NCBI GenBank assembly: GCA_937928595.1
Contig: CALGJV010000019.1
Coordinates: 1-64,000, forward strand
Direction of reading: 5' to 3'
Length of the DNA: 64,000 bases
Source: an uncultured Phycisphaerae bacterium
GTDB lineage: Bacteria; Planctomycetota; Phycisphaerae; UBA1845; Fen-1342
Under the pieces are notes generated by a model that saw only the letters and a list, made by a program, of their open reading frames with translations, searched no databases and had not been told where the DNA came from. Shown one piece after another: positions 7,359 to 11,374 of the stretch (within the stretch, counting starts at the first letter, position 1; each line of letters begins with the position of its first letter). The translations under genes were made by a program, and so were the position numbers.

Positions 7359-7410
7359 ACCACGGCGGACGCTCGCCCCCGCCGCACGCGAACACGGCAT
7401 TAAGTCAGGA

Positions 7411-7439
7411 AGCCCGCCGGTGGGTCGCACCGGCGGGCT
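7411..7439. terminator. strong bidirectional terminator hairpin
   Basis: AGCCCGCCGGTG and CACCGGCGGGCT form a perfect 12-bp stem with a five-base loop GGTCG. On the plus strand it lies about 50 bases after phyH. On the minus strand it follows the possible small gene at 7506-7444 by only a few bases. Confidence 0.8.
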
Positions 7440-7443
7440 TATG

Positions 7444-7506
7444 TCATACCGGCTGCACGGATCGCAGCCACGTTCGCTGCAACTCCGGCAGCCTAGTGTT
7501 TACCAC
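7444..7506 (-). CDS. possible 20-residue small protein
   Basis: On the minus strand a Shine-Dalgarno AAAGGAGGTGATCC (7528-7515), complementary to essentially the whole 16S 3' tail, is followed by a frame opening with GTG at 7506. It reads VNTRLPELQRTWLRSVQPV after the start and stops at 7444, five bases before the 12-bp terminator stem. The spacing from GGAGG to this GTG is long (14 bases). A closer GTG at 7513 (7 bases) opens only a six-codon frame. The block of ribosome site, short frame and terminator looks like one transcription unit. Expression and function are unknown. Confidence 0.4.
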   Translation of the reverse strand: MVNTRLPELQRTWLRSVQPV

Positions 7507-7514
7507 CCTTCACT

Positions 7515-7528
7515 GGATCACCTCCTTT
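7515..7528 (-). promoter_or_regulatory. full-length Shine-Dalgarno sequence
   Basis: Read on the minus strand this is AAAGGAGGTGATCC, the exact complement of the 16S rRNA tail GGATCACCTCCTTT. Most genes in this window have only four to six matching bases. It is followed by GTG codons at 7513 and 7506. Confidence 0.6.
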
Positions 7529-7529
7529 C

Positions 7530-7826
7530 GCACGGGCCACTCCCCGCGCGACGCCCTGGTGGATCCGGGGGTCGCCGGGCCGGGTCCCGTCCGCCGGCCG
7601 TCGCCGGCGAACCCGCGAAGTCCGGGTCCGTCCCGGATTCGGTGAGGTGCCCGCCGCGGAGATGCCGCCGCCCGTCGATTGTTGGCGGGCCAGACCGCGT
7701 CGGCTGGTCTCACATCTGCATTATGCCGGTGCCAAACGCGGAATCAAGCTTTTTCTGCCGGGCCCGGCCGCCGACCTGCCAGTCGCGACGTTCTCGGTCG
7801 ACGGGGCCGCGATCCGACCGGCGCGG
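7530..7826. other. gene-free GC-rich spacer
   Basis: I see no coding similarity, repeat or hairpin of note here. The open frames in both directions are GC-driven and lack ribosome sites. Confidence 0.4.
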
Positions 7827-10258: not shown

Positions 10259-11374
10259 TCAGCGTCGCCGGGGCGCCAGTCCGCCGAGCAGCGCCAGCAG
10301 CGCCAGCGAGCCGGGCTCGGGGATCAGGACGAACGCCCGCGTGACGCCGTTGAGCGTGCCGTAGCCGGTAATCCAGCCCTGCTCATTGATGCCCTCCGCA
10401 GACCGGAGGACCCAGCCGGAGTTCGCCGGCAGCAGGTCGTTCAGGTCCCGCATCACGCCGTTTTCCCACAGGAACGCGCGTTGCGGCAGGCCGCTGATGT
10501 TGGTCACGAACCCGACGATCTGGCCGGCGTCGTTGACATCCAGAGCTTCCGCGAAGGTGTACCCGAGCGAACCCAGGTCCTGGATGGCCGGCGTGGGGCC
10601 GCTCAGGTCCCAGCAGACCGCGCGGCGGATCGACGTGCCCCCGGGCGTCGTGCCGGAGACCGCCGTGCCGACCGCCACGTTGGCGTCGTTGATCGCGAAT
10701 GCCTCGCTGAACGAATCCGGCAGAAGCGAGCCCAGATTGACGACCCCTCCGTTGCGCCAGAGCGTGGCCTGCGACACGCTGACGGGGCTCGATTGCCGCC
10801 GCGAGAAACCGACGACGTCGCCGGCCTCGTTGAGGCCCCAGGCGCGACCGAAGGTGTTCGTCTGCCCGTCGAGGGAGCCGAGGTCGGAGGCCACGCCGTT
10901 CACCCAGCGCGTCGGCCGGCTGGTCTGACCGTTGCTGGAGATCCCGACGATGACGCCGGCGTTGTTGATGTCGTGCGCCACGCCACCGCTCGTGCCCGCG
11001 ATGCTGAGCAGTTCCGTCATCCCGCTGGCCGCGTCCCAACGGAAGGCCCGCGAGTTGTTGTTATCGCTCTCACCCACGATCACGCCGGCATCGTTGATCG
11101 CGTACCCGCGGCTGAAGTTGTTGCTGCCGGGCAGAACGCCGATGTTCTGCGCCGCCCCGGACCCTGACCAGAAGTAGGCGTTCAGCGGCAATGAGGACGA
11201 TGTGGTGCGCGAGTTGCCCGTCACCGCCCCGACGTTGTTGATGTCCAGCGCAAAGTTCTGCGTGCCGCCGGCAATCGTATCGACGGCCAGTACCTGGTAG
11301 GCGGCCGAGGCGCTCGGAGCGAGCAGCACCACGCCCACGAGTCGCACGCACAACGGACCGAACCTGCTTTTCAT
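10259..11374 (-). CDS. HAF-repeat extracellular protein with PEP-CTERM tail
   Basis: The 371-residue product has a signal peptide (about 1-24) and a series of roughly 45-residue HAF-type repeats. The repeat hallmark is DINN or IND/LNE followed by A-x-x-V-G-F/E/T, as in DINNVGAVTG, INDAGVIVGES, DINNAGVIVGIS and VNDAGQIVGF. Each alternates with a predicted strand such as RAFRWD or AFLWENG. The C-terminus is a PEP-CTERM signal: PEP, a hydrophobic helix, then Arg-Arg-Arg. PEP-CTERM proteins are exported and processed by exosortase, but no exosortase is in this window. GGAGGA lies six bases before the ATG. Confidence 0.88.
   Translation of the reverse strand: MKSRFGPLCVRLVGVVLLAPSASAAYQVLAVDTIAGGTQNFALDINNVGAVTGNSRTTSSSLPLNAYFWSGSGAAQNIGVLPGSNNFSRGYAINDAGVIVGESDNNNSRAFRWDAASGMTELLSIAGTSGGVAHDINNAGVIVGISSNGQTSRPTRWVNGVASDLGSLDGQTNTFGRAWGLNEAGDVVGFSRRQSSPVSVSQATLWRNGGVVNLGSLLPDSFSEAFAINDANVAVGTAVSGTTPGGTSIRRAVCWDLSGPTPAIQDLGSLGYTFAEALDVNDAGQIVGFVTNISGLPQRAFLWENGVMRDLNDLLPANSGWVLRSAEGINEQGWITGYGTLNGVTRAFVLIPEPGSLALLALLGGLAPRRR

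Follow-up and report, generated by a model that had tools for sequence, protein, structure and literature searches.

The window, i.e. the whole stretch of 64,000 nucleotides analysed here, almost certainly carries on its minus strand the gene of a structured RNA, which is previously unnamed and lies outside Rfam. An earlier note had described a possible small gene, which corresponds to the 3' portion of this predicted stand-alone RNA of ~300 nt. Its description of the block as a dedicated small transcription unit, coding or regulatory, agreed well with the promoter, hairpins and terminator found here. Its limits (7411-7528) were drawn too narrowly, conservation, structure and promoter reaching to ~7750, and in place of a small coding gene there was a structured RNA of ~300 nt with a frame of six codons, whose peptide displayed no detectable selection in three out of four groups of ORFs. 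As deduced from the homologues, the parts follow one another as a sigma70-type promoter, hairpins P1-P5 (~190 nt), an extended Shine-Dalgarno (SD) sequence, a micro-ORF, hairpin P6 and a terminator:

7742..7747, minus strand: -35 element TTGATT (consensus of relatives TTGACC), from the flank alignment of homologues
7720..7725, minus strand: -10 element CATAAT (ATAAT kept in close relatives), from the flank alignment of homologues
7410..7713, minus strand: predicted transcript of ~300 nt, its start placed from the -10 element and its end from the terminator
7642..7713, minus strand: 5' domain with P1 (GUGAG 7709-7713 / CUCAC 7642-7646) enclosing P2, from local folding in homologues
7621..7638, minus strand: hairpin P3, from local folding
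7589..7613, minus strand: hairpin P4 with loop GCGACGG (GRYGACGG in relatives), from covariation
7532..7590, minus strand: hairpin P5, whose outer and inner helices covary
7558..7566, minus strand: P5 loop GGAUCCACC, similar to the anti-SD sequence GGAUCACC; possible pairing with the downstream SD, in family f1 only
7513..7529, minus strand: extended SD GAAAGGAGGUGAUCCAG, a 17-nt complement of the 16S tail
7493..7513, minus strand: micro-ORF GTG AAG GGT GGT AAA CAC TAG (VKGGKH*), start and early stop kept in homologues
7451..7493, minus strand: hairpin P6, GGCUGC..GCAGC GAACGUG GCUGC..GCAGCC, beginning at the stop codon, from covariation
7410..7440, minus strand: terminator, a perfect inverted repeat with a stem of 13 bp and a loop of 5 nt

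The promoter encountered in relatives was sigma70-like, with TTGACC and an ATAAT-like element separated by 16-18 nt. Promoter-like pairs scored high in 67 out of 113 homologues versus 1.4 % of shuffles, and were mostly located 180-200 nt upstream of the SD; the length of the 5' domain was near-constant among homologues. At the other end, the perfect terminator stem previously reported as 12 bp was found at 7410-7440 and counted 13 bp. Its U-tract was weak in the home genome (CUUCCUGACUU), while an equivalent stem followed by a U-tract was present in most close homologues, the tract being U4 or longer in most. Among homologues, the P4 loop repeatedly contained the sequence GACGG, which recurred in the P6 loop of members not belonging to family f1.

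Covariation covered P4-P6, the helices P1-P3 being predicted from folding. In an alignment of 23 sequences prepared with no structural information, 90 % of the cells paired and 11 pairs displayed two-sided changes; sliding this alignment by one to three columns reduced the paired cells to 28-53 %. The alignment of 88 sequences was fitted to the model, and its 91.5 % of pairing cells and two-sided changes in 27 out of 30 pairs (385 cells) are accordingly biased towards the structure, the 23-sequence alignment providing independent support. None of 500 shuffles of the 88-sequence alignment matched any of the covariation measures. For hairpin P4, two-sided changes were encountered in six out of nine pairs in the unfitted alignment and in all nine with 88 sequences.

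The full complement of the 16S tail announced for the minus strand was present, and it was longer than the 14 bases initially counted. Positions 7513-7529 (GAAAGGAGGTGATCCAG / GAAAGGAGGUGAUCCAG) form a perfect 17-nt complement to the 3' tail of the genome's own 16S rRNA, which ends with GGCTGGATCACCTCCTTTCT. In the home genome, the core 14-mer GAAAGGAGGTGATC was encountered at two sites only, the present one and antisense to the end of the 16S; each of 31 related genomes contained zero to two copies (total matches, not all of which were sorted by site). The reversed control of this 14-mer displayed no copy in the home genome or in the 31 related genomes. These counts, together with the 13-bp stem, indicated that the block is real and not due to chance.

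The coding part required more revision. The proposed frame of 20 codons (VNTRLPELQRTWLRSVQPV, stop at 7444-7446) runs through the downstream hairpin, is not conserved in homologues and is the wrong frame; the conserved start is the GTG at 7511-7513, which opens a frame of six codons. No other start codon is normally spaced from the SD. A start codon six to ten nt (mostly six to seven) after GGAGG, followed by an early stop, was displayed by 87 out of 88 homologues, and by 114 out of 115 when more distant ones were added; since the homologues are related, these counts are not independent trials. Of the shuffled sequences, 46 % displayed an equally early stop and 13 % a start at two offsets. Start codons of the homologues were mostly GTG, followed by ATG and TTG, and stops were TAG (73), TAA (27) and TGA (14), located at or inside P6 after frames of six to 18 codons. 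This pattern makes it likely that the micro-ORF is translated.

The peptide behaved differently from the frame. Three groups of ORFs displayed pN/pS ratios of 1.18, 1.01 and 1.02, with variation about equal over the three codon positions, while a fourth group, composed of four f51 sequences, displayed 0.50. The codons ATA GGT were nearly invariant, third positions included. An internal [AG]GGNGG was located six to ten nt before the stop in 45 % of the ORFs versus 9 % of shuffled ones, and was read in frame 0 in 27 homologues and in frame 2 in 24. Ratios close to one in three out of four groups and a motif read in two frames imply that initiation and termination are conserved rather than the peptide. 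Comparative sequence data of this kind indicate that evolution has preserved the sequence of the RNA and its translation as such, but for the most part not the peptide. At f7 loci such as L021 (GTGGACATAGGTAAACGCAGGAGGCTGCCGTAA), the micro-ORF ends with AGGAGG-CTG-CCG-TAA, with the spacing encountered in the prfB frameshift site. Programmed +1 frameshifting at this sequence, which was present in a few f7 members, was rejected: the +1 frame after the stop was two to 64 codons long and yielded no conserved product.

An SD that is maximal and unique in its genome, a micro-ORF without conserved product, a stop codon in a hairpin and a large 5' domain fit together in a ribosome-capturing RNA. That this would be a regulatory RNA whose purpose is to capture or dock ribosomes was given about an even chance. 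A 30S subunit would bind with unusual affinity through the SD of 14-17 nt; the ribosome would then initiate, read about ten codons, open P6 and halt at the stop codon, which in ~45 % of the homologues lies six to ten nt past a second SD-like AGGNGG. Re-pairing of the SD, together with P6, would delay release, allowing the RNA to retain the ribosome, and the 5' domain would be held there. The aim would be to sense or sequester free ribosomes in trans, or to bring the 5' domain to them, translation being the conserved trait and the peptide a by-product. The suggestion in the earlier note that such an extended match could sequester ribosomes suits this proposal well. A more specific form is put forward tentatively, with somewhat more doubt than belief: a phylum-wide, housekeeping-like ribosome trap or tether, which would combine the only complete anti-16S-tail of the genome with a micro-ORF of irrelevant product and a stop located within a hairpin and next to a second SD, translation itself being the signal. 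The AGGNGG overlaps the foot of P6, may have a role in the helix alone, and was absent from 63 out of 114 ORFs; a very strong SD can also simply signal efficient initiation. An extended helix between SD and anti-SD was seen by cryo-EM in Staphylococcus aureus (PMC13009471), although, according to the same authors, bS21 would hinder such a helix in Escherichia coli. Extended SD-anti-SD helices are physically possible.

Alternatively, the effector of a trans-acting regulatory RNA could be the 5' domain, through base pairing or protein binding, in which case translation of the micro-ORF would merely gate a switch in stability, folding or processing and ribosome capture would not be the aim. We regard this as rather unlikely, yet it has several points in its favour: most of the RNA consists of a 5' domain of near-constant length, the translated start and stop are conserved, and members of family f1 have a P5 loop capable of pairing with the SD, a feature that a switch would be expected to display. 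The pairing of this GAUCACC-like loop with the SD was significant (p<0.05) in four out of 15 f1 members and occupied a common position in about ten out of 15, which hints at a clade-specific off-state. Outside f1 it was found in only two out of 99 homologues, so the P5 loop was rejected as a general sequestrator of the SD, and this anti-SD is restricted to a single family. Nor would it be explained why the SD is a complete complement of the 16S tail, which no other RNA of the home genome carries.

A dual-function RNA or short mRNA with the micropeptide as its product was considered improbable. Start, stop and spacing are conserved, C-terminal sequences of similar look recur within clades (IGxLP, CTRWL, SQRGG) and the four f51 sequences displayed the low ratio given above. 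The three larger groups, however, displayed ratios close to one; ATA GGT was kept down to its third positions, and the same nucleotides were read in two frames across lineages, in products varying from six to 18 residues.

A structured 5' domain, a short ORF and a terminator also look attenuator-like, and a cis-acting leader or riboswitch-attenuator of a neighbouring gene was judged highly improbable. Neighbouring genes differed among genera and were common only to close relatives. In the window, the RNA gene is flanked by PhyH, which is convergent and downstream, and by a divergent DUF1570 gene. The downstream gene differed by genus and was often in opposite orientation, no conserved gene in the same orientation being found, and no Rfam riboswitch matched. 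A cis leader was rejected on the basis of these unconserved neighbours. Elsewhere in the window, positions 10262-11374 of the minus strand encode a DUF3466 protein (Pfam match) with a C-terminus that appeared PEP-CTERM-like by eye.

The 17 nt identical to the antisense strand of the 16S end speak for a 16S rRNA remnant or a chance match. This reading has a negligible probability and was rejected, as the likeness to 16S stops at the end of the 17-nt tail while the RNA keeps its structure, promoter and terminator throughout the phylum. Two outcomes had been named beforehand that would speak against the small gene, namely a lack of conservation in relatives and conservation of the plus strand as a 16S remnant. 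Neither applies: the element was strongly kept in relatives, as an RNA read from the minus strand that has its promoter, hairpins and terminator, and not as a 16S remnant on the plus strand.

A DNA search detected the element in 23 out of 61 genomes, home genome counted. Covariance model R1, which covers P4-P6, matched 85 out of 114 order genomes and 66 out of 248 class genomes. The element was nearly always found once per genome, a few genomes displaying a second, weak match. The broadened model R2, rebuilt from 88 homologues, matched 86 out of 392 genomes sampled across the phylum, complete genomes of 5-9 Mb among them, and among class genomes selected more strictly for near-completeness, 16 out of 41 displayed a match. 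For the 29 out of 114 order genomes and for most class and phylum genomes lacking a match, absence, divergence, detection failure and incomplete assembly are indistinguishable. The RNA is nearly always single-copy and spread across the whole phylum, which is apparently planctomycete, as judged from the earlier note and from gene content (the adjacent DUF1570 gene). A pattern scan of public genome contigs with the 22-mer GAAAGGAGGTGATCCAGTGAAG yielded one exact match, on contig L026 of a Candidatus Binatia MAG. On the minus strand of this contig (~2849-2985), GAAAGGAGGTGATCCAGTGAAG is followed by a frame of 14 codons, VKSTDSVICEVVAT*, with GAGGTGGTGGCCACC, and the R2 score was 18 bits. A distant relative of the family from another phylum is one possible reading of this locus, a mis-binned contig another.

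Structured RNAs that are deeply conserved, nearly always single-copy and outside Rfam are rare. That the present one occurs in many families of the phylum and has covarying helices points to a basic role in the cell, and the conservation of initiation and termination without that of a peptide suggests that translation is used to signal or to anchor. In planctomycetes many genes have no SD, so an RNA carrying the strongest SD that is possible allows a direct test of what the 16S tail does in this group.

Among known systems, tmRNA (RF00023) is likewise a structured RNA with a short ORF that is recruited to the ribosome; it has no SD and carries a tRNA-like domain. Identity with tmRNA was rejected, the genome's own tmRNA being located at C11:48497-48847 (169 bits). 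Dual-function sRNAs (RNAIII, SgrS, PhrS) and the yfr6 and Downstream-peptide RNAs are stable structured RNAs with a small ORF. Their peptides are conserved, in contrast to the RNA described here, whose peptide is not conserved and displayed no consistent selection, and whose SD is a full 16S complement. RNA yfr6 appears in PMC2864571 as an RNA with a small ORF. The Rhodopirellula-1 motif, a candidate RNA from Planctomycetes and Proteobacteria, was described in the same study as probably cis-regulatory and is listed in its table without Rfam accession (PMC2864571); its comparison with the present RNA is based on this published description. No prior description was found in the open-access literature, to which the search was confined.

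No Rfam family reached its threshold for the window or for the homologues. The recurring best sub-threshold match was CC2171 (RF01867), with 20-37 bits (26.9 for the window, 37.2 for the best homologue) against a gathering threshold of 75. Like the RNA described here, this Caulobacter sRNA displays GAAAGGAGGUGAUCCAGUG near its 5' end, a short frame starting from GUG and a terminator hairpin. In contrast, the helices between start codon and terminator were mispaired or unmatched in alignments, the consensus frame counts ~22 codons, and the model lacks a P1-P5 domain. Ms_IGR-5 (RF02471), a terminated sRNA from Actinobacteria, carries GGAAGGAGGUGGUCCGAG at its 5' end; it gave one weak match (23 bits versus a cut-off of 45) and its consensus lacks a start codon at the same spacing. 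Both may be analogues. These two unrelated-looking sRNAs of other phyla also start with a near-complete complement of the 16S tail, and sRNAs complementary to the tail of the ribosome may be more widespread.
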